Assembly: GCA_037447655.1 (NCBI GenBank)
Contig: JBBHKE010001846.1
Span: 97,001-161,000 of the forward strand
DNA from: Zygnema cylindricum
Taxonomy: Eukaryota > Streptophyta > Zygnematophyceae > Zygnematales > Zygnemataceae
Length of the DNA: 64,000 nucleotides
Reading direction: 5' to 3'
Part shown: positions 35,851 to 57,783 of the stretch, piece after piece
Numbering within the stretch: position 1 is the first letter of the stretch
Layout of the letters: each line of letters starts with the position of its first letter
Translations under genes and position numbers: made by a program
The notes under the pieces: model-generated
The model's input: the letters and a program-made list of their open reading frames with translations, nothing else
The model's database searches: none
What the model was told of the DNA's origin: nothing

Positions 35851-37258
35851 GGTTATGGGCCTGTCATCAAGAATTCCTATCTTTTCCGGGGATAAGTATG
35901 TTTACAGGGCGGATATGGTGGAGACACATTTTGAAAATGTCAATCTTTTGGATATATTGGATGGTTCTTTGGATGAATCTGATCCGTCATGGTCTAAGAA
36001 AAATACGCAGGCTCGCTCTATTTTGAAATTTTGTATATCTGAGGACTTAGCTATGCCTTGGATAAAAATGAAAAAAGCTATTGATATCTGGAAATCCATT
36101 AAAAGTGATTATGAAAAGGCTAATGTTCAGGAAGAACTTCTATTGGCTGGAAAAATTTGGGACTATAAGTACAATGGCGGTACAATGGCTGAATATTCTA
36201 ACAAATTTCGTATTCTTGTAGATGCACATGCTTGTGCCGGTGGGGTGTTCCCTCAGTTTCAACAGGCAGCATTGCTCATGCGGGGTCTCCCTCGTAGTAT
36301 GAAAGGAGCATCTGACATGCTCAAACAGAAAGATAAGGCTAGCTGGACTTTGCAGTTAGCAATCAATATTTTACTAGAGGAGGAAGCTACATCTAATATT
36401 CTCAATGTTGAGCAAGTAGAGGCTTTTAATTCAGACTTTGGAAAGAAAAGTCAATTTAATCAGCAAAGTAATCAGTTTACCCAATTGAGACAGTTTAATC
36501 TGGGGGGAAATAGAAAATCCAACAATGCATGTTTTTATTGTAGTGAGAGAGGTCATGGATACAAATTCTGTCCTAAACTTAAACAAGCTAACGATACAGG
36601 TTTATACAGGCCGGGATGGCAACAAAGTCAGTTTTACAAAAGCTTCACGAGGCCTACACCTCGTGGAAATGCACTGTTTTCAGCTTCTTCATCACTCCAA
36701 GACGAAACTCTGACATTTTCTGAGGAGGACGACACAGATCTATTCGCTATGGCGGCAGCAATGGAAGGCGCTAAGGACCCTGGATGGATTATGGATACAG
36801 GAGCGTCAGCGCATATGTGTTGGAAAAAGGCCATCTTCAAAAATCTGAAAGCAACGCCGGAGAAAAATATTTATTATGTTTGTGGAATGAGTGTCCAAAC
36901 TCGTGCAATGGGTGATGTGTCCTTGCTAGTTGATGTGGATGGAAAACCAATTGAAAGGACTCTTCACAATGTCTTATTTGTGCCTGACTTTAAGAAAAAT
37001 CTGTTTTCTACGTCGTTGGTTGAGAGTAAAGGCTTTGAGGTCAGTTTGAAAAATGGTCGGCAGGTTGTTAGCAAAAACGGCAAGGTTGCGGTTACAGGTA
37101 CTAGAGATAGTAGCAAGATGTATCGCATGGATATGGCTAATACAAAAGAAAATGATGTTTTGTACTCCGGTGTTTTGCACTTAGATGAGTTGTGGCATAA
37201 AAGATTAGGCCATGTCAACTATGATAGTTTGAAAAAATGGTTGTTGCTGGAAAAATAG
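35792..37258 (+). CDS. A2 gag-protease (first part of gag-pol)
   Basis: 488 codons from an ATG inside the LTR. Copia gag region at residues ~20-230. CCHC zinc knuckle C-F-Y-C-S-E-R-G-H-G-Y-K-F-C at 247-260 for RNA binding. Aspartic protease active site D-T-G-A-S at 335-339, and the start of the pre-integrase zinc motif (H-K-R-L-G-H) near 471-476. The PBS is read as residues ~21-24 (V-M-G-L). The stop at 37256 comes from a frameshift: the A1 copy has one more base in the purine run just before (near 37230), so in an intact element this frame would continue into 37237-40047. Polyprotein that packages and matures virus-like particles. Confidence 0.92.
   Translation: MSTSTTTAAPPPAPVVVEQQVMGLSSRIPIFSGDKYVYRADMVETHFENVNLLDILDGSLDESDPSWSKKNTQARSILKFCISEDLAMPWIKMKKAIDIWKSIKSDYEKANVQEELLLAGKIWDYKYNGGTMAEYSNKFRILVDAHACAGGVFPQFQQAALLMRGLPRSMKGASDMLKQKDKASWTLQLAINILLEEEATSNILNVEQVEAFNSDFGKKSQFNQQSNQFTQLRQFNLGGNRKSNNACFYCSERGHGYKFCPKLKQANDTGLYRPGWQQSQFYKSFTRPTPRGNALFSASSSLQDETLTFSEEDDTDLFAMAAAMEGAKDPGWIMDTGASAHMCWKKAIFKNLKATPEKNIYYVCGMSVQTRAMGDVSLLVDVDGKPIERTLHNVLFVPDFKKNLFSTSLVESKGFEVSLKNGRQVVSKNGKVAVTGTRDSSKMYRMDMANTKENDVLYSGVLHLDELWHKRLGHVNYDSLKKWLLLEK
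35851..35861 (+). other. Primer-binding site of A2
   Basis: GGTTATGGGCC directly after the LTR, matching 11 nt of the initiator tRNA-Met anticodon arm complement; the next base differs from family B. It lies within the gag reading frame. Confidence 0.75.
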
Positions 37259-40047
37259 AGGGTGTATCAATCACAGATGGGCCGGTCAAAACTTGCGATG
37301 GTTGCGCTTTAGGCAAAATCCACAGATTGCAATTTCCTAACGAGTCTGAGCATCGGTCGACCAAACTTTTACAACAAATTCATTCGGATGTCTTTGGTCC
37401 GGCAAAGGTTCCTTCTGCCGGAGGAATGAAATATATGGTCACCTTCACAGATGATTTCTCACGGTTTACAAAAGTTTACTTCATGAAAGAGAAGAGTGAA
37501 GTTTTTGGTCACTTCAAACACTATAAAGCATGGGCTGAAAAACTTCATAATTCATCTATTTTGCTGCTCAGATCGGACAATGGTGGTGAATATACATCAA
37601 AAGAGTTTGAAACCTTTTTACTCGAGGAAGGCATTAGTCATCTACTGACTGTTCCATATTCACCGGAACAAAATGGGGTGTCGGAATGGCTGAATAGAAC
37701 TCTCACTGAAAGCTCTAGATCTATGCTCGCCGATAAAGGTGTGGATCTGAAATTCTGGGCTGAGGCTCTAAATTGTGCAGTTTATATTAAAAATAGGATA
37801 GGATCAAGATCGGTAGAAACAACTCCTTACGAAATCTGGACGGGTAGCAAACCAGATGTTAGCCATTTCAAGGTCTTTGGTAGTCAATGCTTTATATTGG
37901 ATACGTCTACAGATAGATGGAAAATGGAACCGAAGGGATTACTGGGTATTCTGTTAGGATATGACGATCACTCGAAAGGTTATAGAGTCTTTGTGTTTGA
38001 AAAGCAGAAAATAGTTGTAGCTAGAAACATCATTGTTAAGGATGAACTAGACTCCATAGATTTATTTCAAATGACAGAGCAGCAAAGGCAACAGAAAGTA
38101 CAGGAGTATGTCATCTTAGATTGCATGCAGGAACTTGTCCCGCAGATTCCACAAACTCCGGTAATGACTCAGGAATCAGACTCCCTCCAACTTCCTCACC
38201 AACTTCGGGTCCAGACGGACCAAAAGCAGTCCATACAGACGGAACGCAACCAGCGCAATCACGAACACACGGATCGCAACCAGCGGAATCAGCAAGACAC
38301 GGATCGCAACCAGCGCAATCAGCAAGACACGGATCGCAACCAGCGCAACCAGCGCAATCAGCGCAATGCGCGGGATCCGACGATCTCAGTCTCAGAATTT
38401 CCGGGGGGAAGAAGATCAAGCAGCCGCCTGCAAGCAAGCTCTCACTTTGCCTACTCGGCAGTCTCACGGGAGCCCTTGACCATCTTAGAAGCTTTCTCAT
38501 CACCAGAGCGGAATCACTGGATTGAGGCGGCAAACGACGAAATGAAGTCGATCATGGAGGCTCAAACATGGGAGCTCGTGAACCTTCCTCCAGACCGAAA
38601 AGCGATCGGCAGCAAATGGGTATTCAAGGTGAAGTTAAATCCCGATAACACCATTGAACGCTATAAGGCCAGACTTGTGGCGAAGGGGTACAATCAAAAG
38701 GAAGGAATCGATTTTGAAGAAACATTTTCTCCGGTTGTAAGATTTCCAACAGTTAGGATTTTGTTGTCCCTAGCTGCTATAGAAGATATGGAAATTCATC
38801 AGATGGATGTAAAAACGGCCTTTTTGCATGGAGAACTAGAAGAGACCATTTACATGCTGCAGCTTGAAAAGTATGTAGAACCAAGAAAAGAGCACTTAGT
38901 ATGCAAGTTGCTAAAATCTTTGTACGGCCTGAAACAGGCCCCAAGACAGTGGAATATAAAGCTTGATGAATTCTTGACTAGTCTAGGATTTCAAAGGATA
39001 AGTTCTGATCACTCTGTCTACGTTCTAAAGGGTGAAAATGGGATAGTATATATAGCGGTATATGTAGATGATTTGCTATTAATTAGCAAATCAATGGCTG
39101 AAATTAACAAAATCAAAACTGCTCTAAACTCACGGTTCGAGATGAAAGACCTCGGTGAGGCAAAATATATTTTGGGTATCCAGGTAGAGAGGGACAGAAA
39201 TAAGAAAATAATAAAATTGACTCAAAAAGAGGCTATTGGAAACATGTTAGATGAGTACGGAATGCGGGGGGCAAAAGGGTGTTTAACTCCAATGGAATTT
39301 CGGCAGAAGTTAGAGGGAGAAGAGACAGAACCAGGTGTTATTGTTAGCGAGTATTTAGAATCAGGGGAGAATTATCCTATGGCAATAATACCTTATAGAC
39401 AGATAGTGGGAAGCTTAATATACTTCATGAACTGTACCCGTCCTGACATTGCTGCAGCAGTCGGGGTACTGAGTAGGAGTCTACAAAATCCGAGAAAATC
39501 TGATCTGGATGCAGCAAAGAGAGTCTTAAGATATTTGGCAGGAACTAAAGATCTCAAACTCACTCTAGGCGGAGGAGAAGTCAAGCTGCAAACATCGAGT
39601 GATGCAAGCTATGGCGACATGCCAAGCCGGAAATCTACCACGGGATTCGTTCTACAAATCGGGAACGGTACTTGCTGCTGGAGCAGCAAACTTCAAAAGG
39701 TGACAGCACAATCGACAATGGAATCGGAATATATGGCAGGAAGCTTGGCCCTCAAAGAACTCTTATGGGTAAAATCCATGTTACAAGAACTAGGATACAT
39801 GCAAATTGGTCCACAGGTGATCTGGTGTGATAACCAGGCTGCCATTGCCATTGCTTCTAACCCGAGTCATCACTTCAAAAGCAAACACATGGATGTACGA
39901 TTACACTTTGTAAGAGAAAAAGTGTTCTCTAGAGTGATTAAATTATGTTACTTACCAGATGCAAAAATGATTGCTGATATGCTCACTAAAGCTCTTCCTG
40001 CTCCTAAGCTGAAGTATTGTAGGGAAGCAGTGGGATTAAGTGAATAG
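37237..40047 (+). CDS. A2 integrase, reverse transcriptase and RNase H
   Basis: 936 codons open without a stop. Integrase zinc pair C-D-G-C at 20-23; catalytic core D51 (S-D-V-F-G), D114 (R-S-D-N-G-G) and E150, with 35 residues between the last two as in the family. Linker with tandem Gln/Asn/Arg repeats at ~335-380. RVT_2 from ~430, with the Y-V-D-D box at 609-612. RNase H motifs S-D-A-S-Y-G-D, E-S-E-Y-M-A and W-C-D-N-Q-A-A-I near the end. Copies the element RNA into DNA and inserts it. The first ATG is not a natural start: the part is the -1 continuation of gag-protease. In copia elements both form one polyprotein. Confidence 0.93.
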   Translation: MVVAGKIEGVSITDGPVKTCDGCALGKIHRLQFPNESEHRSTKLLQQIHSDVFGPAKVPSAGGMKYMVTFTDDFSRFTKVYFMKEKSEVFGHFKHYKAWAEKLHNSSILLLRSDNGGEYTSKEFETFLLEEGISHLLTVPYSPEQNGVSEWLNRTLTESSRSMLADKGVDLKFWAEALNCAVYIKNRIGSRSVETTPYEIWTGSKPDVSHFKVFGSQCFILDTSTDRWKMEPKGLLGILLGYDDHSKGYRVFVFEKQKIVVARNIIVKDELDSIDLFQMTEQQRQQKVQEYVILDCMQELVPQIPQTPVMTQESDSLQLPHQLRVQTDQKQSIQTERNQRNHEHTDRNQRNQQDTDRNQRNQQDTDRNQRNQRNQRNARDPTISVSEFPGGRRSSSRLQASSHFAYSAVSREPLTILEAFSSPERNHWIEAANDEMKSIMEAQTWELVNLPPDRKAIGSKWVFKVKLNPDNTIERYKARLVAKGYNQKEGIDFEETFSPVVRFPTVRILLSLAAIEDMEIHQMDVKTAFLHGELEETIYMLQLEKYVEPRKEHLVCKLLKSLYGLKQAPRQWNIKLDEFLTSLGFQRISSDHSVYVLKGENGIVYIAVYVDDLLLISKSMAEINKIKTALNSRFEMKDLGEAKYILGIQVERDRNKKIIKLTQKEAIGNMLDEYGMRGAKGCLTPMEFRQKLEGEETEPGVIVSEYLESGENYPMAIIPYRQIVGSLIYFMNCTRPDIAAAVGVLSRSLQNPRKSDLDAAKRVLRYLAGTKDLKLTLGGGEVKLQTSSDASYGDMPSRKSTTGFVLQIGNGTCCWSSKLQKVTAQSTMESEYMAGSLALKELLWVKSMLQELGYMQIGPQVIWCDNQAAIAIASNPSHHFKSKHMDVRLHFVREKVFSRVIKLCYLPDAKMIADMLTKALPAPKLKYCREAVGLSE
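38240..38375 (+). repeat. Minisatellite in the A2 integrase-RT linker
   Basis: About four imperfect copies of a 27-30-bp unit (ACGGATCGCAACCAGCG...). They encode repeats of D-R-N-Q-R-N-Q-Q-D-T. A1 has the same array at 16320-16440 with a different copy number. The length stays in frame. Confidence 0.85.
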
Positions 40048-40142
40048 TTGAATTACTGCACTGCTATATTGCTATGCTGCGGTACTGCGCTAGTCTTTCA
40101 CCGCAGCTGCGCTGGTATACTGAGTCTAAAGCTTTAGGGGAG

Positions 40143-40988
40143 TGTTGTCTTTTGGAAAGCTCTCAGTCTCAGAGCAGCGCAGCAGCGCAGCAGCGCAGCA
40201 ACTATACAGACAGCAGCGCAGCTGCTATACGGAAGAGCAGCGCTGCTGCTATACAGTAGAGCTGCGCAGCAGCGCAGCAGCAGAGCAGCGCAGCAGCGAA
40301 GCTGCGATACTGACAGGACAAACGCAGCTGCGGTCACTTTGGATAAGATCCGTACAGACAACGCAGCTGCTACTATCTTGGATATGATTTGGTGCAGGAC
40401 ACCACAGCCGCGGGTGATATAAATGTGATCCGGTACGGGACAACGCAGCTGCGATTAATATGAATCTAGTCAACGGACGAGATTCATAAGAGTATCACAA
40501 GTGACTTAGCCGACAAGTATTTGTACAGTAACTTAATATAGATTCTGAGTAATATTGACTGTACAATGATAGATTGGGTTGGCACGATCAAGAACACGTA
40601 GATCTCAGTAGGTGGGTTGATTCTGGACGTACCTCTCTGGTACATTGTTATCGGCGGTAGAACACCGAAAGTATAAGACTTAGGACTTAGAACATTTTTA
40701 TGTATCCAGACTTCCAAGTAGTGAAACTGCAGACAGTTTTTGGGAAACTTCTGAGTATTATATCTTGAGTGTTGTTGGGTCAATTGTGCTGAAACTTTGG
40801 GAGTTGTCAGTGTTTATGTTACTCTATATTCTGATAGAGTTTTGTGAGATTTGGATGCTTGTATAAGAATTGGTGATCACTTAAGAACAGCTGTTTGGTA
40901 GGATTCTTGATAGCTTCTGAGAGTGTATCATGTCTACTTCTACTACTACTGCTGCTCCTCCACCTGCACCGGTGGTTGTAGAACAACC
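40143..40988 (+). repeat. 3' LTR of A2
   Basis: 846 bp, 63 bp longer than the 5' LTR because of extra GCAGC-array units at 40165-40310. Its last base is C rather than A. It repeats the first 19 gag codons, then joins B5 sequence. Confidence 0.95.
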
Positions 40989-40993
40989 AGTAC

Positions 40994-42530
40994 TACTCTT
41001 GTAGGATCGGTAGATCTGAAAGTGTTGGTAGAAGGAAAAACATACATAGTAACATTCTGAGTTGTATTGTTTATTCCGGAGTTGAACAAAAACCTCATCT
41101 CTACGTCTATATTAGATGATAAAGGTTTTGATACTAGCACTAGGAAAGGCGTCTTTACTGTTAGTTTTGAGAAGGAAGTTTATTTCACCGCTGAAAAAGG
41201 TAGCCAAGGGATGTTTAGGCTGATTTTAAGCAATGAAAAGAAGAAACTTTAGTATGATAGTGTTCATGGTATAATGACTTGGCATAAGAGGCTTGGGTAT
41301 GTGAATTTAGATAAGCTTAGAGAGATGAAAAAGATGGGAGTGGTGGAAGGAATTCTGTTCAGTGAGAGTGAGAATCTAAGTGATTTTAGTGGATGTGCTC
41401 AAGGTAAAGCACACAGATTGCCCTTTCCCAAAACAGTCACCTATAGGGGAGAAAAAATTCTAGATTTATTTCACACAAATATTTGGGGACCGGCCAAAGT
41501 GCCCTCGGCGAAGGGGAAGAGATTTATGATGTATATCACTGATGATTGGTCTCGATATTTTAGGTTGTATTTTTTGAAAAACAAGTTAGAAGCTCAGGAT
41601 TGTTTTAGACAATATAAAGCATGGAGCAAAAAACTCTATGAAACTCCAATCAAGAGAGTAAGGAGTGAGAATGGTGGAGAGTATACTTCTAACCATTTTG
41701 AGGATTTTCTGAGGGAAGATGGAGTTCAACACCAAAAGACATTTCCAGAAAATGAGGAACAGAATAGGGTAGCTGAACGATCAAATATGACACTTAGTGA
41801 TAGTGCTAGAAGTATGTTGTCGGATAAGAAGATAGGAAAAAGGTTTTGGGCAGAAGCAATGAACTGCGCTAATTACCTCAAAAATAGAGTTCTTACCTCA
41901 GCTATAAAAGATGAAACACCTTATGAGAGATGGACCAACCGAAAACCAGACATATCTCACTTAAAGGTTTTTGGTAGTCAAGTATTCAGTCTAGATACAG
42001 ATCGGTCTAATTGGAAGCTAGATCCTAAAAGAAAACCAGGATACTTATTAGGATATGATGAGGATCTTAAAGGATATAGAGTTTATGATCTAAAAAGGGA
42101 GTATATAATCTTGTAAAACATCTAGTAGTTATGGATGAAGGAAGTCTGTGGATCCCTTCAAGTATACAAAGTCAGTAAAAATCACATTTGAGTCAAAAAA
42201 TTCCGATGACTTTGAGCTTCCTAACTATCTAGGTTTTAGAGAAGATGACATTCTTGCAGGTACAAATCAGACCGAAAAGGACTCTGCTGCGGAAACTCCA
42301 GTGACAACTCTACCCAAAGCGGAAGACGTGATGGAAATTGCTTCGGAATCAAGGGATAGAGGAGAAGCCGAGATTGTTCGAAAGAACCCACGAGAACCAT
42401 CTATTCTGGCCACAGATTTTGAGGGGGGAAGGAGAAGTAGCAAAAGATTACAAGAAGAACAGGTTAATAACAAGGTAACAAAACTATCTCATCTAGATGA
42501 ACCTCAAACTTATGGAGAGGCGATGACTTG
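40994..42530 (+). pseudogene. B5 protease end, integrase and linker
   Basis: Resumes after A2. 41067-41252 and 41274-42116 are open; the latter covers H-K-R-L-G, the Cys zinc pair and the integrase core. The first catalytic Asp is changed (H-T-N-I-W-G) and the second is Glu (R-S-E-N-G-G-E-Y), so the core is dead. A base deletion near 42115 and another near 42140 shift the linker frame. Confidence 0.83.
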
Positions 42531-44078
42531 TCCAGAAAGGAACCGGTGGAAAACAGCCATCACTGAGGAAATGGCCTCAATTATGGCAGCCGAACTTGGG
42601 AGCAGGTGGACTGTCCACCTAACCGAAAACCAATCGGTTGTAAGTGGGTTTTCAAATTAAAACTGAACCCGGATAACACAATTGAGCGTTACAAAGCTCG
42701 ATTAGGGGAAAAAGGATTTACACAGAAAGAAGGAATCGACTATGAGGAAACCTTTGCTCCGGTCGTCAGATTTCCCTCCGTCCGCATACTTCTCAGTCTC
42801 AGAGCAGCGGAAGACATGGAAGTGCACCAGATGGACATTAAGACAACCTTTTTGCATGGAGAATCGGAAGAGGAGATCTTCATGCGACAACCCGAAGGAT
42901 TTGTGGAGGAAGGAGAGGAGAGTAAGGTATGCTGACTGATTAAATCCCTTTACGGTTTGAAACAGGCACCTCGACAATGGAATAAGAAACTTGATGAGTT
43001 TCTTACCGGTGTGGGATATATCTAGATCAGCTCAGATCACTCAATCTATGTTTTTGAAAATGAGGGAGGTATTATATTTATTGCAATTTATGTTGATGAT
43101 TTACTTGTTTTAAGCAAATCAATTGAAAAAAATAATAAACTGAAAACCGATCTTAAGAGGAGATTTGAAATAAAGGATATGGGAGAAGCAAAATATATTT
43201 TGGGAATTCAAGTAGAATGAGACCAAGAAAGAAAGATTATAAGATTGACTCAAAAGGAAGCAATAGGGAACATGCTAGAAAAATTTCAGATGGATAAAGC
43301 TAATAGTTGTACAACTCCAATGGAGTTAAGGAAGGGAAGTGAGGGGAGTGAGGAACAAGGAGTCATAGCCTTAGATGAGGAAATAAGTCCTAAAGAAAAG
43401 AAGTTCATGCAGACTATTCCTTACAGGCAAGTAGTGGGAAGTCTAATATATTTTATGAAATATACCTGGCCGGATTTAGCTACAGCTGTAGGAGTGCTGA
43501 GTAGAAGTCTAAATGCTCCCACTAAGAAGGATTGGGAGGCAGGTAAGAGAGTCTTTAGATATTTGATAGGAACTAGGGATCTATGGTTGCATTTGGGTGG
43601 GGAGAATACTGACATCACTACTTGGAATGATGCCAGTTATGGTGATGCTCCGATGAGGAGATGTACTTCTGGATATGTATTATATGTGGGTGGTCGGGCT
43701 TACTGTTGGAGTAGCAAACATCAAAAGGTTTTGGCTTAGTCCACCATGGAGGCTGAGTATATGGCCTCTTGCTCTGCTGTAAAAGAATTGATGTGGGTGA
43801 AGTCTTTGCTTGGTTAGCTTCGTCACCTTAAGAGTGCTGTGCAAATTTCTTTTTGTGATAATCAGGTTGCAATTGCTATTTCAGCCAATCCTAAACATCA
43901 TTTTAAAGCTAAACAGATTGACATTAAACTCAGCTTTGTTAGAGAGAAAGTAGAAAACAAAATAATCAGTTTAGAGTACCGACCAGATAGTGAGATGGTA
44001 GCAGATATGATGACCAAACCTGTGCCTTCCCCTAAACTAATTTTTTGCAGGGAGAAGCGTGGTCTGAAATTAAAGATT
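42531..44078 (+). pseudogene. B5 reverse transcriptase and RNase H
   Basis: Frames 42606-42935, about 43020-43240 with stops, 43245-43739 and 43839-44102. The Y-V-D-D box is at about 43090-43101. RNase H has W-N-D-A-S-Y-G-D and F-C-D-N-Q-V-A-I with a stop between. Confidence 0.84.
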
Positions 44079-44097
44079 CACATGAAAATAAAGGGAG

Positions 44098-45182
44098 TGT
44101 AGAAATTGATGGTTATTTTATTATTTTCTAAATCTAAATTGGAATATAGAAAGTAGCCGAGGCAGTCTGGCTCTAACTTCTCTCTCCAAACTCCCACACT
44201 AGTTACAGTCACCAAGAAGTTGGAGAGGAAGCTAGAGCCATGGCTACCTAGGCTATCCAGAGGTTTACGGGAAATAGATTAGTTAATTTACAGATAGGTA
44301 GGTTTATTTACTAAAAAAGGTAGGTTTATTTACTAAAAAAAGTATGTCGGAACCTGGTTTTGATTTTGGTACTTGCCGATCGTTAGAACGCTGGTAGCCG
44401 GTAGCCTTAACCGTTAATCTAGAAGTTAGGATACATACTATTGGGTTTGATATTAATTTAAATGTTAACACATAGGAAAATTCATTTAATGGCGGATGTT
44501 TACGGTTACATTGATCCAGTTATGTAAACATACGGATTTTCGTATGGATAAGAAACAAGTACCGCGCATATTGTTTCTTTTACGAAACAAATACCGCACA
44601 AGCATTTATGATGGCTGCGATTGAAATCTGCATTCAATCGGACTGCGAAAAAGAAAGTCGAGATCGCGGAAGAGATTCTCGGCGGTTTGTGGTTATCGCC
44701 ACATCGGATGATACGTGGCACGATTACGTTGGATCGCGGAATCTTAGGGAATTACGGGACCGAATCTGAATATGACATATGTCGACATTTAGGCCATGTC
44801 GTACAATATCCGTATATAAAGTACACCCGCAGTTGTACTTTTGTGTACAAGAGTGTCATATGATTGGTACCGTACACTAGTAGATAGAGTTTTAGAGAGA
44901 GATAAGACTTAGAAAAATTGGTAGATCGGACCCTCTCTCCCAGAGAGCTTCTGTACAAAAGGTAAACTTTGACCCATTATAACTTACTACTCGAGGGAGC
45001 AAATTCAGAGATTATTTTTTCTACGACTCAAGGGAGTCTTGCCTTCATAGGGGTGAAGGTGGTCAGAGTTTTTGTTGTTAGGGTGGTGGTTATTCGTGCT
45101 AAAAGATAAACGGGTCAGGGTTATCCTAGAGAATTTGTGTGAGCTGCTTACCTTGAGGTCCTATGGAGGTCTTAGAGTTGCA
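44098..45182 (+). repeat. 3' LTR of B5
   Basis: 1085 bp. It is longer than the 5' LTR mainly because of a direct duplication of 'ggtaggtttatttactaaaa' (44298-44340). It keeps the ATG 20 nt from its end (45163), here reading out into gypsy sequence by chance. Confidence 0.9.
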
Positions 45183-45187
45183 TCTCC

Positions 45188-45785
45188 TCCTCCACCTAAA
45201 AACCCATGGCCTCCCAATTGGCCCTAAAAGACGACAACCATGGGAACTCCACCTGTTAGTCGCGGAACTCGAATCTGTTTCGGATGTGGAAAAACCAGGC
45301 ATGATACTTGCATGTGTCTTGGCAAGGCGGCCACTTGCACTCACTGCCACCAAAAGGGATATTATGTCCATCGGTGCCATATCAAGGACCCTAATTTCAC
45401 TTATCAAAATTTGATAAAAAACGGAGGAATTCCGACCCGTTCCGCGAAACGAGTCCTTTCGCCTAAGGAGACTGAGAAAGAGGAAGCTCCTCCTAAGATC
45501 TCTCGTAGAGAGAGAGAGAAGGTCGAGCTTCAAGCCACAATGGGGTCCATGATGAAATAGCAATTTGCAGCTTTCATGGCGGAAATGAAACCCCAATTTA
45601 CTGGGATGGCTAGGACCGTTGTCCACAAGCCGTCGTTGGCTAGGCGCACTCTTCGAGATTCCACTGTCCAACAACGGGTGGCCACATTTGAAAAGGGCTC
45701 GGAGGACCATAACCGAGTGGGCAAATTACAAAATTCTCGTGTTCCACTCTCATTTGCAAAAGAGCCTCTCCTACCATCGCGGTAG
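45188..45785 (+). pseudogene. Gypsy-like gag end with two CCHC-type zinc knuckles
   Basis: Continues the gag frame of 32146-32759 across the removed B5 insertion: Pro-rich segment, TAA 45225, then open 45240-45560. Knuckle 1 is C-F-G-C ... H-D-T-C, knuckle 2 C-T-H-C ... H-R-C, at residues ~13-48 from the ATG at 45240. A Lys/Glu-rich region, TAG 45558 and more open frame to about 45785, where a frameshift leads to the protease frame. Nucleocapsid function is known for such knuckles. Confidence 0.78.
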
Positions 45786-46430
45786 AGGCACTGACCATAT
45801 TGGATGGCACTATTCATGAGGCTCATCGGGTGAAGGAGCGATTAAGTATTCTTTCAACGATGTTGGAGGATGTACTGAAAGCCTTTCCCCTCGTTGATGA
45901 GGTAAAAGAAGCAGCGGCTTTGAGGGCTCTGTAGTTAAACCGCAGTCTTTCAGCGGTTCAATCGGCAACTACGGAAGAGCATCGTAATCTCGATCCCCAT
46001 ATCAGTTTCTTTGATAACTCTCGTGGATCATTCTCAGTGAACGGTGTTCACCCCACTCTTTCTCTCATGGACACCGGGGCCAAACCCGTGATCCTCGGAT
46101 CCGGATTTGCGCTCAAACTTGGTCTGGCAGCAGACAAGCTTCAAGCGACCGCTACCCGCTTTCTTACTTCGGCTGGGACCACGGAGCCGGTCCTTGGAAT
46201 CACAAAGGACTCGCTCATCTTTTGGTTTCAGACATGAACCGAAAATGAGTTTGTTGAAATTGCCTTTAGAGCATTGGTCACTAAATGTGACGACTATGAG
46301 TGTTTGGTGGGTCAAGATGTTATATTTCGAATTGGTGGTGGCATGGACATGCACGACCAAACATTCTCTTACCGACCGACACACTTTCCGGAGCGCAAAA
46401 TCTACCTCCCTCTCATTTCAGCCCGCTGAC
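45786..46430 (+). pseudogene. Gypsy-like aspartic protease
   Basis: Reads V-E-A-L-T-I-L-D then, after TAG 45932, the retropepsin core L-M-D-T-G-A-K-P-V-I-L-G (catalytic D-T-G at about 46070). After TGA 46235 comes the C-terminal flap region Y-E-C-L-V-G-Q-D-V-I-F, ending in F-S-Y-R-P. This tail is typical of retroviral-type proteases of plant gypsy relatives. TGA 46427 separates it from the methyltransferase in the same frame. Confidence 0.78.
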
Positions 46431-46432
46431 CT

Positions 46433-47899
46433 TTGCCCACTATGGCTCACTCGGCTACGGCTCTTCCGGCATTTTTGGGGAACTCTGTTGGGGAGGAAAT
46501 TTTTCACTCTCTTTCAGCCAAAGAAATCATACCGGATAATTCCCCTTTACACGAGCTCTTTGCAGAACCGGGTTTTCTTATCAATTCTCACACATTTGAA
46601 AATATTTATAAGTCCACATTATCTATTCCATTAACAACTATCCCTCCTATACCTACAGTTGCAATCAATCCTTCGGGTTTCCTTCCTATCAGTTGGAAGC
46701 CCGTACAGCTGAGTCCTCATACGGACGAGGTCATTATTTTAGATCTATTCGCTGGGATTAGAACTTCACTATTGTCATGTTTACGGAATGGTCTCCTCAC
46801 CTATAACTACTATGCAGTAGAAGTTTATGCATTAGCTAGAAAAGCACAATTGCACCACTGTAATCTCCTACATTCACAGTATCCACAGTTGTTTCCAAAG
46901 TTAGCCTTTCTACACATGCACACTGCTCTTCCACAAGACATCCGCATCCTTAGTAATCATCATCTACGAGATATCGAACCGATAGACCTTATTTTCGGGG
47001 GGTGGGAGTGTCAAGGCATGTCTCTGGCCGGCAAAGGTCTTGGTTTGGCGGATCCCCGTACCAAATTGTTTTTTTTGATTTTGAGGGTCCTTCATTTTCT
47101 TCAAACCATGGCCAAGCCTGTCAGATATAGTTTAAAAAACGTCGCCGCTTATAATGATCCTCGGCCTATAGTTCTTCCTGACTATAAGCGCATAAAACAC
47201 CTTATCGAACCCTCGCTAATTATTGATGCGGCTCGGCATGGGTCCCTTGCACATCGGGTTCGGTCCAAATGGACAAACCTAATCGATGTTGGTCGTCTTC
47301 ATGAGGCTAATTTGTTTGTAAGACATCCCACTACAGACATTACGGCCGCTTTGCTTCCCTTTCACCAAGTCGATTCATGTGTCTAAACTGACTACCCTCC
47401 AAATTACAGCATTTATGTACCTGGCTAGCCACTCAAGGTCCTTCCTACTTTAGTGTCTTACTCTTATTCCCATGCATACTCTCATAACGGTGCAGGCATG
47501 CTTCGGAATAATATCACAGGAGAGTTAGAGGAGCCTACGGCCACAGAACCGGAGCGTCTTATGCATTATATTCCAGGCACTACTGCGGCCCTCGGCCTTA
47601 CGGATAGACAACGTTGTAATTTGTTGGGTAGGGTCATGGATCCTAAGTCTTTATCATTTGTGTTAGGTATCGGCCTTGCAGGTGGTCGCTACGCACAGAA
47701 ACAACGCGTGGACCCAGCTGGGGGGGGGGGAATACGGCGGCTCTTTCACGTCATGTTCCTTCTCGCACCTCCCCTAATTTCAAAGGAAATCCATTTCAGT
47801 TTTTTCTCTTCCCTTCTCTCACACCTGCGGTTAAAGACATCTCTATCTATGATTTCCTCAACCCCAATCACATGTCTTGGGAAATCTCTGACTATATAA
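46433..47899 (+). pseudogene. C5-cytosine DNA methyltransferase domain within the gypsy-like element
   Basis: Open 46433-47386 (317 codons), then TAA 47384 and TAG 47426, then open 47453-47899 in the same frame. Motif I D-L-F-A-G-I (104-109), motif II-like V-E-V (129-131), motif IV G-W-E-C-Q-G-M-S (catalytic Cys 193; usual P-C-Q reads E-C-Q), motif VI L-K-N-V (usual E-N-V), motif VIII-like H-R-V-R (274-277). Motifs IX-X are in the second part: P-E-R-L-M ... L-T-D-R-Q-R ... L-L-G-R-V-M-D. Motif order is the standard Dnmt order, not the rearranged DRM order. It would transfer methyl from SAM to cytosine; this copy is probably inactive. A frameshift at the G-run 47720-47729 ends the similarity. 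Confidence 0.85.
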
Positions 47900-48066
47900 C
47901 CGTTCAATCCACAATTTCATTATTTCCTAGTCCGGCACCGCACTTGACAGCTGCATTTTCGACGCATAGCTGGCACCACTAGGTGAACTACTTGCAGCAA
48001 ACTCCAGTAAAATACGAGTTAGGCCACTGACTCATCGCCAATGAGCAAATTGCATTTGCTCATGCC
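47900..48066 (+). other. Spacer between methyltransferase and RT, no gene seen
   Basis: Short stretch with stops in all frames and no recognised motif; probably decayed linker of the polyprotein. Confidence 0.4.
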
Positions 48067-48331
48067 ATGGAAGCTTTCAGTATCAAGAGTCTCGAGACGC
48101 CCAAGTGGAAGTTCGGCTCCAGTCTCAAAAAGGCGGAACATGCACTATTAAGTGACACAGTCACCCGTCATATAGATGCGTTTACTTTCTCTATGAATGA
48201 CTTTAGACATCATTCTATTTAAAAAATGGAAATCGACCTTGAAGACGATCGACCTATCTTTAAGCCGAAACACTATCTCTCCGAAATGGAATGGGAGATG
48301 GTGGACAAAAGATGCGCAGAATTGGAAGAAG
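48067..48331 (+). pseudogene. Gypsy-type reverse transcriptase, N-terminal edge
   Basis: Reads H-I-D-A-F-T-F-S-M-N-D-F-R, a stop, then D-D-R-P-I-F-K-P-K-H-Y-L-S-E-M-E-W and a helix ending A-E-L-E-E. This is the characteristic lead-in to Ty3/gypsy RT (D-x-P-I-x-x-x-x-Y-x-x-S, then a charged helix ending near E-L-L). It is cut at 48331 by B6 before the first RT catalytic block. It places the methyltransferase between protease and RT. Confidence 0.72.
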
Positions 48332-49388
48332 TGAAACTCTGAGACCTCCATAAGTCCTCAGAGTGGACAGCTTCTAAGAAGCCTCTAGGATAACCCTGAC
48401 CCCTTTGTGTTTCAGCAAAAATAAATGCCACCCTGCAGACAAAAACTCTGACCAACTTCACCCCTATGAAAAGAAGACTCCCCTGAGTCGATAGCAAAAA
48501 GAATCTCTGAATTTGCTCTCCTGAGCAGTAAGTTATGGAGGGTCAAAGTTGACCTTTTGTATAGAAGCTCTTTGGGAGAGAGGGTCCTATCTTCTAATTT
48601 TTCTAAGTCCTATCTCTCTCACAGACTCTATCTACAGATGTACAGAGCTAATCAGATTTCAGTTTCGTACACAAAAGTACAGCCGCCGGTGTACTTTATG
48701 TACGGCCATTGTACGACATGGCCTAAATGTCGACACGTGGTATGTTCGGATTCGCTCCCTTAATCCTCGGAGATGCCGCGATCCAATGTCATTCCGCCAC
48801 GTGTCATCCGATGTGGCGATGACCACAAACCGCCGAAATCCTCTTCCGCGATCTCGGCGTTAATTCCGGCCGTCCGATTAAATTCACATTTAATCGTAGC
48901 CGTAATAAATACATGCGCGGTATTCGTTTCACTAAAGAATTAAATGCGCGGTATTGGTTTCTTATCCGTACCGGAATCCGTACTTTTACATTTACTGGAT
49001 ATATGTCTCCCGTAAACAGTTACAGTTAAATGAACTATCCTACGTATAAATGTTTAAGTAATTATCAAACCATATAGTTCGTAACACTACTCCTAGACTT
49101 AACGGCTAAGGCTACCGGCTACCGGTTGTCTGCCGGCCGGCAGGTACCAGGATCAAATCCTGTCGCCGGCACATATCTTTTAGTAAATTAAACCCCTAAC
49201 TAAAATATATTTTCCCGTAAACCTCTGGATAGCCTAGGTAGCCATGGCTCTAGTTCCTTCTCCAATTTCTCAGTGACTGCGACAAGTTTGAGAAGTTGGA
49301 GAGAGAAGTTAGAGATAGACTGCCTCGGCTTCTTTCTTATTTCTATTCAAACCTAGAAAAAACTTTAAAAAGACCATTAATTTTTACA
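48332..49388 (-). repeat. 3' LTR of B6
   Basis: 1057 bp, TGTAAAAATTAATGG to CAGAGTTTCA on the minus strand. It carries the GTAC palindrome (48670-48715) and G-boxes. Confidence 0.92.
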
Positions 49389-49429
49389 CTCCCCTTATTT
49401 TCTAGTCAATCTTTAATTTCAGACCACAC

Positions 49430-50960
49430 TTTTCTCTGCAGAAAATTAGCTTAGGGGAAGGCATAGGTTTGGTCATCATATCTGCTACCATCGAACTATC
49501 TGGTCGGTACTCTAAGCTGATTATTTTGTTTTCTACTTTCTATCTAACAAAGCCGAGTCTAATGTCCATGTGTTAAGCTTTAAAATGATGTTTAGGATTG
49601 GCAAAAATAGCGATTGCTGCCTGATTATCACAAAAAAAATTCTGCACACCACTCTTAAAGTGACCAAGCTCACCAAGCAAAGACTTGAACCACATCAATT
49701 ATTTTACAGCAGAGCAAGAGGCCATATACTCAGCCTCCATGGTGGACTGAGCAATGTTTTTTTGCTGTTTGCTACTCCAACAGCAAGCCCCATCACCCAC
49801 ATATAATACATATCCAGAAGTGCATCTCCTCATCGGAGCATCACCATAACTAGCATCACTCCAAGTAGTGATGTCAATATTCTCCCCACCCAAATGTAAC
49901 CATAGATCCCTAGTTCCTATCAAGTATCTAAGGACTCTCTTAGCTGCCTCCTAATCCCTCTTAGTGGGAGCATTTAGACTTCTACTCAGCATTCCTACAG
50001 TTGCAGCTAAATCTGGCCGGGTACAATTCATAAAATAGATTAGACTTCCCACTACTTGCCTGTAAGGAATTGTCTGCATGAACTTCTGTTCTTCAGGATA
50101 TAATTCCTCGTTTAAGACTATGACTTTTTCTTCCTCACTCCCCTCACTTCCCTTCTTCAACTCCATTGGAGTTGTACAACTATTAGCTTTATCCATTTGA
50201 AATTTTTCAAGCATGTTCCCTATTGCTTCCTTTTGAGTCAATCTTATAATTTTTCTCTTTCGGTCTCTCTCTACTTGAATTCCCAAAATATATTTCGCTT
50301 CCCCCATATCCTTCATTTCAGATCTCCCGTTAAGATCGGTTTTCAGTTTATTAATTTTTTTCATTGATTTACTTAAGACAAACAAATCATCAACATAAAT
50401 TGCAATAAATATAAAACCTTCCTCATCTTCGAAAACATAGATTGAGTGATCTGAGCTGATCCGGATATATCCCAGACCGGTAAGAAACTTATCAAGCTTC
50501 TTATTCCACTGTCGAGGCGCCTGTTTGAAACCATAAAGAGATTTAATCAGCCGACATACCTTACTCTCCTCTCCTTCCTCCACAAACACTTCGAGTTGTC
50601 GCATGAAGATCTCCTCTTCTAATTCTCCATGCAAAAAGGCTGTCTTGATGTCCATCTGTTGCACTTCTATGTCTTCCGCTGCTGCCAAGCTGAGAAGTAT
50701 GAGGACGGAGGGAAATCTGACCACCGGGGCAAAGGTTTCCTCGTAGTCAATTCCCTCTTTTTGTGTAAATCCCTTTTCCACTAATCAAGCCTTGTAGCGC
50801 TCGATTGTGTTATTTGGGTTCAGTTTTAATTTGAAAACCCACTTAGAACCGATTGGTTTTCGGTTAGGTGGACAATCCACCAGCTCCCAAGTATCGGCTG
50901 CCATAATTGAGGCCATCTCCTCATTGATGGCTGTCTTCCACCGGTTTCTTTCTGGACAAG
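49430..50960 (-). pseudogene. B6 reverse transcriptase and RNase H
   Basis: RT begins at the end of the frame 51924-50785, then a TGA replaces an Arg codon (Y-K-A-stop-L-V). 50781-49951 is open with L-H-G-E-L, L-Y-G-F-K-Q-A-P-R-Q-W-N and Y-V-D-D. A TAG replaces Trp at about 49948, then 49923-49699 has W-S-D-A-S-Y-G-D and E-A-E-Y-M-A. Later stops affect the last RNase H part. Confidence 0.88.
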
Positions 50961-52400
50961 TCATCGCCTCTCCATAAGTTTGAGGTTTATCTTGATGAGA
51001 TAGTTTAGTTACCTTGTTATTAACCTGTTTTTCTTGTAGTCTTTTGCTACTTCTCCTTTCCCCCTCAAAATCTGAGGCCGGAATAGATGGTTCTCGTGGA
51101 TTCTTTCGAACAAACTCGGCTTCTCCCCTATCCCTTGATTCTGAATCAATTTCCACCACCTCTTCCGCTTCGGGTAGAGTTGTCACTGGAGTTTCCACAG
51201 CCGAGTCCTTTTTGGTCTGATTTGTATCTGCAAGAATGTCATCTTCTCTAAAACTCGGATAGTTAGGGAGCTCAAAGTCATCGGAATTTTCTGACTCAAA
51301 ACTGATTTTTACTAACTTTGTATATTTGAAGGGATCCACAGACTTTCCTTCATCCATAACTACGAGATGTTTTACTAAGATTATATCTTCTCTTTTTAGA
51401 TCATAAACTCTATATCCTTTAACATCCTCATCGTATCCTAATAAGTATCCCGGTTTTCCTTTAGGATCTAGCTTCCAATTAGACCGATCTGTATCTAGAC
51501 TGAATACTTGACTGCCGAAAACCTTTAAGTGAGATAAGTCTGGTTTCCGACCTGTCCATCTCTCATAAGGTGTTTGATCTTTTATTGCTGAAGTAAGAAC
51601 TCTATTTTTGAGGTAATTAGCATAGTTCATTGCTTCTGCCCAAAACCTTTTTCCTATCTTCTTATCCGACAACATACTTCTAGCACTATCACTTAGTGTT
51701 CTATTTAACCTTTCAGCTTCCCCATTCTGTTCTGGGTTTTCTAGAACTGTCTTTTGGTGTTGAACCCCATCTTCCCTCAGAAAATCCTCAAACTGGTTAG
51801 AAGTATACTCTCCACCATTGTCACTCCTTATTCTCTTGATTTGAGTTTCATGAAGTTTTGTGCTCCATGCTTTATATTGTCTAAAACAATCCTGAGCTTT
51901 AGACTTGTTTTTCAAAAAATACACTCACGAATACCGAGACCAATCATCAGTGATAGTCATCATAAATCTCTTCCCCCCCAGTGAGGGCACTTTAGCTGGT
52001 CCCCAAATATCTATGTGTACTAAATCTAGAAGTTTTTCTCCCTTATAGGTGGTTTTTTTTGGAAAGGGTAAACTGTGTGTTTTACCTTGAGCACATCCAC
52101 TACAATCACTTATATTATCATTCTCACTAAACTTAATCCCTTCCACCACTCCCACCTTTTTCATTTCTCTTAACTTGTCTAGATTCACATGCCCAAGCCT
52201 CTTATGCCACATCATAATATCATGAACACCAGCATAATAAAGTTTCTTCTTTTCATTACTTAAAACCAGCCTAAACATCCCATGGCTACCTTTCTCAGCA
52301 ATAAAATAGACATCCTCCTCAAAACTAGCAGTAAAGACTCCTTCCCTAGTGCTAGTAAAAAAACCCTTATCATCTAATACGGATGTAGAGATGAGGTTTT
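50961..52400 (-). pseudogene. B6 integrase and linker
   Basis: H-K-R-L-G-H motif, Cys zinc pair (C-S-G-C), then H-I-D-I-W-G, R-S-D-N-G-G-E-Y and a Glu in G-E-A-E-R-L-N. Broken once by a TGA at about 51925 (Arg codon in sister copies). The D,D,E residues are all present. Confidence 0.88.
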
Positions 52401-53760
52401 TGTTCAGCTGCGGAATAAACAATACATCGGAGAATGTTACTATGGATGTCTTTCCTTCTACTAACACTTTCAAATCTACCGATCCTACAAGAGTAGTGGT
52501 GACTATCCTTCCATCCCCGTACTCTATCTCTACGGTGGGAATATTTCTTATCTTAGTGAACAGGTGCCTTTCCTTACACATGTGCATGGAGGCACCTGAA
52601 TCTACAATCGTGCCTGCTTCACCTTTCAATCCACCGTAAGCACATTTCTGCCTTCGTGGTATTTCGACCTTGTTTTTCTGCTCCTACTCCTCATCTAAAA
52701 GGAGCTCATCGTCCTTGTCCTCGCATTCCGCCTCATGTACGTGTGTCACAAGGGCCTTTTTCTTTCCTCTCGGGGTACCACCGGTCTGCCCCTCTTTTAA
52801 CCGAAGCTCAGTTAGCTTAGTGCACTTTGCCATATAGTGCCCAGGTTTCTTACAAAAATGACATAAACCTTTGGGAGCCCTTGGTCCGAACTCGTCGGTC
52901 TGATTTTTTTGCTCCCTCCCCCCATAGTTTCCGACCGGTTTCCGGGAATCCTTGTTCCTCCAATCGGTCGCAGTTGCCAAGGCTTGGCCACTCTTTCCTC
53001 CTCTTCGGATCTCAATCGTATTCTCCCGAACGAGAATCATCCCTACCACTGAGTTCCATATCCACCTTGAGTCCGGCAAGTCCTGCACACGGTTGACTAT
53101 GTTCTCGAACTCATCCGATAACTTCATCAGTAAACACTTAACCTTTCCTTTTTCACTAAAACCTTTTCCCGCACTCTCTAGCTCCATGAAGAGTGTAGCA
53201 AGCTCATTGCAAAAATCCAACATCTTCCCCCCTTTGTATACATACTCCTTAACTTTCTGATCAGCCAACTGTTGTTGCTGAATCGTACCACTTCGGTACA
53301 TCTTTATGAGAGCCATCCAAAGATCGGATGCCCTTTCCACCTGCAAATGAGGACATGGAAGTCCTTGAGTGAGATGGCGTAGGATGAAGTGCTTTGCCGC
53401 CATATTGTTGAAGTCCCAAGTTTCAGTATCATTCTCCTCGTTCCTCGGAATAGGTGACATAAATGCCGAACCAGTTGTTAATGGTGTGGTCGCCTCCTTC
53501 TCCTTTCCTTTGTCCACCACCTCTCGTTCTTTTGTTTCCTTCGTTGAAGGTGGATCCTCTTTTCAGGTGAATCTGCTTCCTCCAAACCCTGGAGGAATTC
53601 CAAGACTTGATGGACGCCCGAACCATCCACTCACTATCCCCCAAAACCTTTTTTCGCATAGAGCTCCTATTATCATACTTTTCCAGTATATGAAGCAAGT
53701 TCCATTAAAGATTGGTACCCTAGAGGGTGGGCCCATAACGTGAAACTGTGAGACCTCCAT
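52401..53760 (-). pseudogene. B6 gag and protease
   Basis: Starts at ATG 53758-53760, 20 nt inside the 5' LTR, reading M-E-V-S-Q-F-H-V-M-G-P-P-S-R-V and passing through the PBS. First part open to 53563, then open 53520-52684 (278 codons) with the intact CCHC knuckle C-H-F-C-K-K-P-G-H-Y-M-A-K-C. After a TAG, 52629-51925 carries protease D-S-G-A-S. The clearest example of the family's gag start. Confidence 0.9.
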
Positions 53761-54616
53761 AAGTCCTCAGAGTGGAGAGCTTCCAAAAAGCCTCTAGGAT
53801 AACCCTGACCCCTTTGTGTTTCAGCAAAAATAACTGCCACCCTGGCAGACAAAAACTCTGACCAACTTCACCCCTGTGAAAAGAAGACTCCCATGAGTCG
53901 ATAGCAAAAAGAATCTCTGAATTTGCTCTCCTGAGCAGTAAGTTATGGAGGGTCAAAGTTGACCTTTTGTATAGAAGCTCTTTGGGAGAGAGGGTCCTAT
54001 CTTCTAATTTTTCTAAGTCCTATCTCTCTCACAGACTCTATCTACAGATGTACAGAGCTAATCAGATTTCAGTTTCGTACACAAAAGTACAGCCGCCGGT
54101 GTACTTTATGTACGGCCATTGTACGACATGGCCTAAATGTCGACACGTGGTATGTTCGGATTCACTCCCTTAATCCTCGGAGATGTCGCGATCCAATGTC
54201 ATTCCTCCACGTGTCATCCGATGTGGCGATGACCACAAACCGCCAAAATCCTCTTCCGCGATCTCGGCGTTAATTCCGGCCGTCCGATTAAATTCACATT
54301 GAATCGTAGCCGTAATAAATACATGCGCGGTATTCGTTTCACTAAAGAATTAAATGCGCGGTATTGGTTTCTTATCCGTATCGGAATCCGTACTTTTACA
54401 TTTACAGGTTATATGTCTCCCGTAATCAGTTACAGTTAAATGAACTATCCTACTTATAAATGTTTAAGTAATTATCAAACCATATAGTACATAACACTAC
54501 TCCTAGACTTAACGGCTAAGGCTATCGGCTATTGGCTGTCTGCCGGCCGACAGGTACCAGGATCAAATCCTGTCGCCGGCACATATCTTTTAGTAAATTA
54601 AACCCCTAACTAAAAT
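53741..54616 (-). repeat. 5' LTR of B6, truncated
   Basis: About 876 of ~1055 bp remain. The missing part is the LTR start. Bases 54590-54616 are read as the last codons of the family-C frame that ends here. Confidence 0.88.
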
Positions 54617-55468: not shown

Positions 55469-56439
55469 AACTCCCCTTTCTTTTCATCTCCCTCTCTTTC
55501 CACCAAAGTTCCGATAAGGTTTACCTTTTTCTTTTTTCCTCTCATCACGCTTCCGCTCGTCACCGTTGTTCCTCACATCATGCTTCCGCCAGTCACCACC
55601 AACTGTAAATGCAGTTTACCTTTCACTTCCCCTACAAAGCTCCAAAAAGCTTTCCCTCAGAAGTAGTATTCCATGGTAATACTCCTACTCCACGAGGAGC
55701 CATCCATTCCCTGCATACGATAAATGATGTCTTTGTACTCATCAAGATTTTTCATGATAATTGTATTAATCTTTCTCTCCACAGATTCTACATATCCCGC
55801 ACTAGCAAGCTCAACATATAACGCAACAATATCATTGCAAAACTGTATCATGCTACCGCCTTTATAAACATAGGCCCTTATTTCTTGTTTTACTAACTGC
55901 TGCCTCTGTATAGTCTCACTTTTATAAATTTGAATTAGTGCTTCCCATATCTCTGAAGACTTCTTTAAGTTTATAAGAGTGATAGCTATGTACTTAGACA
56001 CGATTCTAAGTATAAGATGCTTTGCTATAGTGTTTTTGTATTCCCATTATTTTCTGTCATTTTCTTCACTTTTAATCCCTACAAGTGGTACCATAGCTGA
56101 GAGCCTAGCTCCCCTCACCATATGTGTCCCTTTTTCCTTCTCCCCTATTTCCCTATCCACGGCATGGTTTTTCCCTTCACCTTCCGTTATATCTGAACTC
56201 CCGTTGATATTCTGGGCAGCCTCAGATGATTCTCCATACTAAGCTCCTCCAAAGCCAGGTGGCGGACATCTCACTTGTCCCGAAACAATTCCCCATAAGT
56301 GCTTCTCAAAAAGCAATCCCTCCATTGTAAACTCCCAATAAGTGAGGTATGTTCCATCGAACATAGGCACCCTAGATGGTGGGCCTATAACTTGAAATTC
56401 TATGGGCTCTATATCCTGAACAGCTTCCAGTGTCCGCAA
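55469..56439 (-). pseudogene. Family-C gag, N-terminal and middle parts
   Basis: The start ATG 56437-56439 lies in the LTR (47 nt from its end), reading through the PBS as F-Q-V-I-G-P-P-S-R-V. Open to 56239, then broken; 56001-55657 is open and matches the gag middle of family B (W-E-A-L-I-Q-I-Y-K-S-E-T-I-Q-R-Q-Q-L). Stops lie at 56240 and 55650. Confidence 0.75.
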
Positions 56440-57783
56440 TTTCTAGTACTCACCGGAGTCTCTCCCAAAATGTGGATAAAATCTTGACGCCTCATCTGGC
56501 CAGCTTGGGAAGAGTAGATCTGCTAGTGGCAGGGTGACCATGTCAAGGATACTCCCTAGCCAGACAAGGAAAAGTGCATCAATACCTGAGGAGTGGAACA
56601 TTTTTTACAATGGTGAAGTTTATCTCATGGGAACAACAACATCGGAACACACCAGTGGGGTACGTTTTGGAAAATGTTCACCCAAGAGATGATCGAAGAA
56701 ACCCAGGCAGGCAAAGACTCTGACCGACTACACCCCTGTGTAGCGTGGACTCCCCTGAGTCCGCAGCAACAAGAATCACTGAATTTGGTCCACTGAATTG
56801 ATAGTTATGGTTGGCCAAAGTTTGCCATTTATATAAGGTGCTCTCTGGGAGAGTCAGCTACCTACTCGAAATATTCTAAGTCCTAAACCCCTCTCTAAAC
56901 CCTCTAGTACTGAGGTACGGACCAATCACATTACTGTATAGTACATAAAGGTACAAATGCCGGTGTACCTTTTGTACGGACATCGTACGACATGGCTAAT
57001 AAGTCAACAAATGTCCTATCCGGATTCGCTCTTGTATTCTCCGGAATTCCTGCCTCCAAATCTTATCTCTCCACGTGGCGCCAGGTCATGCCGCGTCAGA
57101 AAACGGTACCGTACAAGAAAGTACAAGTGTCGGAGTACTTTCTGTACGTACATTGTACGATGTCGCCATAGTGCGACATTTGTCACTCCCGGATTTGTTT
57201 TCTGCCGTTCCGGAAATTCCGTAATCCCGTACGATGTTGCCACGTGTCATCCGGAGTGGCGGCGTCTGCAAACTGCCAAATTTTCCTTTCCGCGATGTCG
57301 GCGCTTACCACGGCCGTCCGATTTGCATCGTAACTAAAACGGACCGTCGAAATAAATGTCCGTACTATTTATTTCGTCTGGTGCTAAAAGTACAACTGTT
57401 TCTATGCCCTGAATACCGTAATCCAGTTAAATGAAATTCCCTATTTGTAACTATGTAAATATCTATCAACCCATGTATGTCACAGCACTAGTCCTAGGCT
57501 AAATGGACAAAGCTAACGACTACGGGACGGTTGACGGACGGTAGGTACCAGGATCAAATCCTAGGTCCGTCAAATTCCTTTTTGGTAAATATACATAAAT
57601 TAGCTATTCTTGTCTCTCTGGAGAGCTTAGGCACCCATGGCTCTAGCTCCCTTTCCAGCCTTCAGTGACTGCGACAAGTGTGGGGGCTTGGAGAAGGGAG
57701 TCAGGGGCAGACTGCCTCTACTCTTTTCTATCTAATAAAGACCTAGAAAATACCCAAATATCAACAAAACACCTGAGCTTACA
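56393..57783 (-). repeat. 5' LTR of the family-C element
   Basis: 1391 bp, TGTAAGCTCAGG to AGAATTTCA on the minus strand. Shares blocks with family-B LTRs: Gln-tRNA-like 'ctggactcaggggag' segment, GTAC palindromes (56937-56990 and 57105-57160), CACGTG near 57240, and the box-B-like GGATCAAATCC near 57550. Confidence 0.8.

Follow-up and report, generated by a model that had tools for sequence, protein, structure and literature searches.

Several retroelements are known to harbor a C5-cytosine DNA methyltransferase (MTase). According to PMC5890265 (de Mendoza et al. 2018), KnitGypsy-Dnmt3 of Klebsormidium nitens carries a Dnmt3 domain within the Gypsy Pol frame; its repeats are arranged as in DIRS elements, and the domain is under purifying selection. 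Among the enzymes described in the same paper, those of SymbioDIRS-Dnmt3 methylate CG de novo in yeast. SymbioLINE and KnitGypsy enzymes gave no methylation in yeast, a negative result called inconclusive by its authors because human DNMT3B failed too (PMC5890265). Some DNMT3 are reported to be embedded in streptophyte and dinoflagellate retrotransposons, with LTR Copia and DIRS elements being named (PMC12344493), and antiviral roles have been the subject of speculation (PMC6338049). A retroelement-borne Dnmt3 domain in a Gypsy Pol frame is, therefore, already a known kind of arrangement. The first-pass annotation of the locus described below mentioned MTase captures in charophyte algae and dinoflagellates but did not know of one in this position; a Dnmt3 within Pol had already been published for a Gypsy element of a charophyte (PMC5890265).

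The locus lies in a window of 64,000 nucleotides (C1386:97001-161000) from an assembly of 352.8 Mb in 2689 contigs. With a probability of about 0.72, it derives from a multi-copy retroelement of the Ty3/gypsy type, whose polyprotein would harbor a Dnmt3-type MTase between the protease and the reverse transcriptase (RT) and a PHD finger after the integrase, the MTase presumably methylating DNA. What is new here is another host, probably a zygnematophyte, the PHD finger, a glutamate at motif IV in one family of copies (family A), and some (partial) target duplications.

The copy present in the window is dead: it is a truncated, interrupted, and mutated relic (Table 1). Its gag fragment matches copy C449 with 89.6% DNA identity (32153-32763) and is recovered at 32179-32760 with the L009 polyprotein as query. 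It stands 12.4 kb upstream of the main body because a nested copia-type element, assigned by reading its translation by eye rather than by HMM scan, has inserted between the two. A 5-bp duplication, TCTCC, bounds this insertion (32755-32759 and 45183-45187), and the gag and the main body of the relic were therefore once contiguous. The proposal that CCHC knuckles and gag lie upstream of the MTase is borne out. The L009 query also covers the CCHC part and the following stretch (45240-45776), a region for which the Pfam scan of the window returns no CCHC match. The second knuckle displays a Tyr at the expected His position.

Table 1. Features of the relic and of its surroundings, in window positions.
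Feature	Position	Strand	Basis
gag fragment, approximately residues 228-421 of reference copy L009	32153..32759	+	61% protein identity to L009
Copia-type element with a second copia-type element inside, inserted in the relic	32760..45182	+	Repeats, open frames, translation
Relic main body: CCHC, protease, MTase, RT lead-in	45183..48331	+	89.7% DNA identity to C449
CCHC zinc-knuckle region	45276..45377	+	Translation
Aspartic protease, retroviral-type (LMDTGAK)	45935..46234	+	PF13650 Asp_protease_2, E 1.9e-5, above cut-off
Predicted Dnmt3-type C5 methyltransferase domain, broken	46718..47728	+	Pfam, protein alignment
Linker and RT lead-in, ending before the RT core	47716..48331	+	L009 residues 1268-1471, match to 48339
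Second copia-type element, opposite orientation, right limit of the relic	48332..54603 (right edge approximate)	-	Repeats, translation
Second methyltransferase fragment	56391..56702	+	63% to family B, 38% to family A

The protease and the MTase do share one frame, as first proposed, but four stops interrupt it between 45935 and 47728 (46235, 46427, 47384, and 47426), the last two inside the MTase domain. Furthermore, the L009 protein match shifts frame near 45775 and at a G run near 47720, and two substitutions affect the relic MTase: Gly is replaced by Arg after motif I, and Glu by Lys in motif VI. The initial annotation set the end of the domain at 47899; it lies near 47728. Of the gypsy RT announced downstream, the lead-in is present, but the core is missing, the copia-type element of opposite orientation taking over from 48332; with the RT core of the L009 query and a threshold of E 1e-3, nothing is found in the window or in the 10 kb upstream and 6 kb downstream of it. 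The second MTase fragment, 8 kb downstream, resembles family B more than family A, and the window therefore holds relics of two MTase-bearing families. Elsewhere in the window, a CT-rich tandem array of period 12 (61533-61988) generates long Ser-Leu-Pro open frames. Short 76-78% matches to repeat and leader parts of C449 are also observed 4.7-6.9 kb upstream of the window (L039), and are perhaps scraps of another element copy.

The translation of 46433-47386 matches the Pfam family DNA_methylase (PF00145) above cut-off, with an E-value of 8.6e-8, so that the HMM check called for in the first-pass annotation turns out positive. The MTase of an uninterrupted copy aligns to the window domain over 337 residues with 68% identity (5e-157). 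The motifs follow one another in the usual order, as had been claimed: the segments DLFAGI (46742-46759), GWECQGMS (47000-47023), SLKNV (47129-47143), AHRVRSKW (47249-47272), and RQRCNLLG (47606-47629) are those that we take to be motifs I, IV, VI, VIII, and the IX-X region, respectively. Families A and B keep the same order, motif IV reading EC instead of PC in the former and PC in the latter. Motif I precedes motifs IV, VI, and VIII, which rules out the DRM type, with its circularly permuted motifs. Against solved structures, DNMT3A is the best match of both the family A (1.5e-10) and the family B (2.3e-14) MTases. A profile of seven MTase sequences reaches DNMT3A/3B at 4.7e-18, and HhaI (4e-7), DNMT2 (4e-6), DRM2 (1e-4), and HaeIII much more weakly. 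Judged by these database scores, the element MTase is a predicted Dnmt3-type enzyme nearest to DNMT3A/3B. An NCBIfam scan adds the superfamily dcm alone, below cut-off. Prokaryotic relatives were ruled out in a prokaryote collection, where none of the 24 stretches with short-pattern matches encodes a relative; IMG/VR yields one weak match to the window protein (29%) and one to the alignment (31%).

Considered alone, with its broken frame and its missing RT core, the window could be viewed as an accidental neighborhood in which a host MTase pseudogene happens to lie beside a retroelement fragment. The other copies tell otherwise. Copy L009 (2035-9219) is a single frame of 2395 codons that harbors, in order, CCHC (zf-CCHC, 0.0086, below cut-off), protease (Asp_protease_2, PF13650, 0.012, below cut-off), MTase (DNA_methylase, 2e-11), RT (RVT_1, PF00078, 1.4e-29), RNase H (PF17917/PF17919, 2.6e-34), integrase (Integrase_H2C2, PF17921, 4e-15; rve, PF00665, 1.7e-11), and a C-terminal PHD finger (1.5e-9). 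The succession gag, protease, MTase, RT put forward from the window alone is, thus, also that of other copies, with the part from CCHC to PHD in one frame in L009. The family B copy L011 repeats this succession from protease through MTase, RT, and RNase H to integrase, here spread over two adjacent frames. Pfam finds nothing in the frame on the gag side; for the PHD finger, the score is weak (0.0044, below cut-off). No recombinase family is detected by Pfam in the L009 and L011 frames, where the rve integrase is present.

Across the genome, PF00145 gives at least 123 scored matches, all above cut-off (782 first-look candidates). The 954-base window query gives at least 40, being itself and 39 others of 85-92% DNA identity (236 candidates). 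Merged, the two lists amount to at least 156 loci; the window is among them, as is at least one gene of the host. We fetched twenty 10-kb stretches around MTase matches, picked mostly for long open frames. Nineteen of them contain an element-type MTase, and one (L028) contains a host exon whose nearest solved relatives are the plant enzymes 9mvy, 7ubu, and 4fsx (1.3e-28 to 1.4e-28), animal DNMT1 being far (1e-12). The third of these is presumably maize ZMET2, and the exon is, by sequence comparison, chromomethylase-like. Downstream of the 19 element MTases, tblastn at 1e-6 detects a same-strand RT in 17 cases, an integrase in 16, and a PHD finger in 14, so that the expected pairing of the domain with the element is found in other copies.

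Taken from the RT side, the genome displays at least 109 scored RT rows (4357 first-look candidates), of which at least 33 have a same-strand MTase, among the matches listed, within 4 kb upstream; for the best 30 RT rows, the number is at least 21. The spacing of the 33 pairs falls at 943-956 bp (n=10) or 1164-1186 bp (n=18), two classes that seem to arise from the two query types, with the remaining values being 1035, 1110, 1225, 1226, and 2522 bp. For the other 76 of the 109 rows, no MTase is found among the matches listed, absence of the domain being one possible reason. Distant RT matches (32-42% to the element RT) occur beside element copies at L016:9210-9999 and L026:1-993, and are possible relatives without MTase. 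Together, the single frame of L009, the repeated RT-MTase spacing, and the RT linkage in 17 of the 19 element loci rule out a chance neighborhood, to which a practically negligible probability is given. Carried by related copies, one of which has an uninterrupted frame, the MTase is a built-in and selected part of the element.

Copies fall into at least two diverged families. L020 shares 82% identity with family B in its RT and 51-52% in its MTase, versus 57% and 37%, respectively, with family A. The two domains give the same grouping, which suggests, on identities rather than on a tree, a single MTase capture predating the split of the families.

Within family A, the median dN/dS of the MTase is 0.145 (range 0.054-1.214; 105 pairs from 15 copies including the window) and that of the RT 0.091 (range 0.027-0.369; 45 pairs from 10 copies). 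Both medians are restricted to unsaturated pairs of more than 100 codons with a dS above 0.02. Many pairs are saturated. In family B, the MTase value is 0.261 (range 0.116-0.403; 15 pairs from 6 copies, two pairs being identical or almost identical). The window copy displays higher ratios against L013, L021, and L025 (0.45, 0.48, and 0.60, respectively), and 0.06 against L019 at a dS of 2.9, near saturation. The family A MTase domain is thus under purifying selection, and that of the window copy is decaying.

What is selected might not be DNA methylation. The domain may have been kept to bind nucleic acids, to play a structural role in the polyprotein, or to methylate RNA: in all 15 aligned family A copies, Glu takes the place of Pro just before the catalytic Cys, and the KnitGypsy-Dnmt3 enzyme was inactive in yeast, with the reservation expressed by its authors (PMC5890265). 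CpG ratios lean the same way. Two family A copies have observed/expected values of 0.88 and 0.99, the relic 0.81, and the window 0.75, compared with 0.66 for one family B copy and 0.70 for a copia-type copy. CpG loss as a trace of self-methylation is, hence, not seen in the two family A copies, although young copies would show little of it, and strong self-methylation in family A gains no support from these ratios. On the other hand, family A keeps the motif IV Cys in 15 of 15 copies, the motif VI Glu in 14 (the window being the exception), and AHRVR in 14 (the exception being L027). Pro precedes the catalytic Cys in all six family B copies, giving the normal PC, and SymbioDIRS enzymes do methylate DNA (PMC5890265). 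A loss of DNA methyltransferase function is thus considered rather unlikely, and an element that methylates DNA remains the preferred reading.

The ends of the element depart from simple LTRs. In C1344, a 931-bp repeat A1 is followed by the body, by B1 (~243 bp), by A2, identical to A1 over 931 bp, and by B2, 99.6% identical to B1. C449 follows the same A1-body-B1-A2-B2 plan, with A1 and A2 at ~80% and B1 and B2 at 96%. Of the anticipated full-length frame between LTRs, the frame is, thus, found in L009, but the repeats of C1344 and C449 are split direct repeats and not simple LTRs. The B1|A2 junction, CGACAGCTGTCA, contains the palindrome GACAGCTGTC. Nine of the 19 element loci, C1374 included, possess it, and a tenth, L027, has it with one base different; the right end of several others lies outside the fetched stretch. 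A G-rich tract precedes B1. By eye, the TGG of a tRNA primer site is absent directly after A1 in C1344, C1374, and C449. These features may be read as a Gypsy-type polyprotein set on a DIRS-like repeat plan.

Ends of the form TGTC...GACA delimit C1344, C449, and C2602. A clean 4-bp target duplication is found in two of the six copies read at both ends, C1344 (TTGG) and C2602 (CCCC), and three of four bases agree in the flanks of C449 (TCAT and GCAT). C783 and C544 stop at B and lack A2-B2. No target duplication flanks either of them, nor the composite C1374. In the latter, the family B segment 31305-37083 (L011, L034) includes three copies of the tail segment, with 3.7 kb between two of them.

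The A repeats identical over 931 bases indicate that the element moved recently. This weighs against an alternative in which the MTase restrains its own element, silencing copies by methylation, slowing retrotransposition, and keeping the element tolerable for the host. Self-limitation is one option named in PMC5890265, and at least one stop occurs in 82 of the 109 listed RT rows; such a restraining role is nonetheless regarded as unlikely.

Under the preferred reading of a methylating element, the protease would cut the polyprotein, and the MTase would travel with the RT and the integrase. It would then methylate cytosines, either of the freshly made cDNA or at the site of insertion, while the PHD finger would guide the integrase to chromatin that bears a specific form of the histone H3 tail. 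During reverse transcription, both ends may be restored with the help of the internal B1|A2 junction. The DDE integrase could join the TGTC...GACA ends to the target, acting on an intermediate, circular or end-joined, at its B|A junction; the target duplications support this last step only in part. Methylation of the cDNA or of the insertion site, with the PHD finger guiding integration, is most likely the role here, and cDNA methylation is among several options discussed for such elements in PMC5890265. A bolder version, held to be quite improbable, joins a writer and a reader: with the Dnmt3 domain, the PHD finger, and the integrase on one polyprotein, the element would choose its sites by the state of H3 and methylate its own DNA on arrival. 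It would combine a DIRS-like cycle with a DDE integrase, the palindromic B|A junction serving as attachment site. To our knowledge, no mechanism has been worked out for a DIRS-like split-repeat cycle with a DDE integrase.

Some PHD proteins read unmodified H3K4 (H3K4me0). The family A PHD finger matches PHD proteins of the PDB from 2.4e-16, among them PHF12, BAZ2B, lid/KDM5, WSTF, PHF21A, UHRF1, ATXR5, and others, and these closest solved relatives presumably include readers of unmodified H3K4. A streptophyte host is well supported. Besides the chromomethylase-like exon of L028, the genome gives 27 GRAS matches on 12 contigs, and GRAS is traced to the common ancestor of Zygnematophyceae and land plants (PMC9915684); a single dynein heavy-chain locus is found, which would suit an organism devoid of flagella. 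In Zygnema cf. cylindricum SAG 698-1a, the PHD family is reported to be at least 9-fold larger than in other Zygnema strains (PMC9915684); retroelement-borne PHD fingers might account for this enlargement, if the host is that alga.

Since host DNA methylation silences mobile elements, an element with a conserved de novo-type methylase runs counter to the usual picture. Another streptophyte lineage, with at least two diverged families and a finger of the histone-reading type at the integrase end, makes chromatin steering by the element testable, and the combination of split repeats with a DDE integrase turns the replication of such elements into a concrete question.

Among known systems, the chromoviruses of the Ty3/gypsy group possess a protease-RT-RNase H-integrase polyprotein in which the integrase is followed by a chromatin-binding module. 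The present element shares this order and a module of the chromatin-binding type at the same place; in contrast, it has a PHD finger instead of a chromodomain, an MTase between protease and RT, and split repeats. DNMT3A and DNMT3B include a zinc finger that reads histones (ADD), and the present element likewise has a finger of the histone-reading type. They have the same motif order as the element enzyme and are its best-scoring solved relatives; they are, however, distant, neither an ADD nor a PWWP match is found here, and the PHD finger lies remote from the MTase, at the end of the polyprotein.

Ginger1 elements are devoid of reverse transcriptase. They possess a Gypsy-type integrase and, in Ginger1-9_HM, a PHD finger towards the C-terminus, as does the present element, but they are DNA transposons with terminal inverted repeats (PMC2836005). 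A PHD finger is not mentioned in the main text of PMC5890265, and a literature search over titles and abstract beginnings found none on an MTase-bearing Gypsy element.

SymbioDIRS-Dnmt3 and SymbioLINE-Dnmt of Symbiodinium are likewise retroelements carrying a C5 methyltransferase, and the former has the same A-body-B-A-B repeats (PMC5890265). SymbioDIRS, however, relies on a tyrosine recombinase, and SymbioLINE belongs to the LINEs, whereas the scanned copy here has an rve integrase and no recombinase. KnitGypsy-Dnmt3 resides in an assembly of 104 Mb (PMC9915684), versus 352.8 Mb here; compared by description (PMC5890265), both are Gypsy elements of a streptophyte alga whose Pol frame includes a Dnmt3-type domain under purifying selection, and both have DIRS-like repeats.
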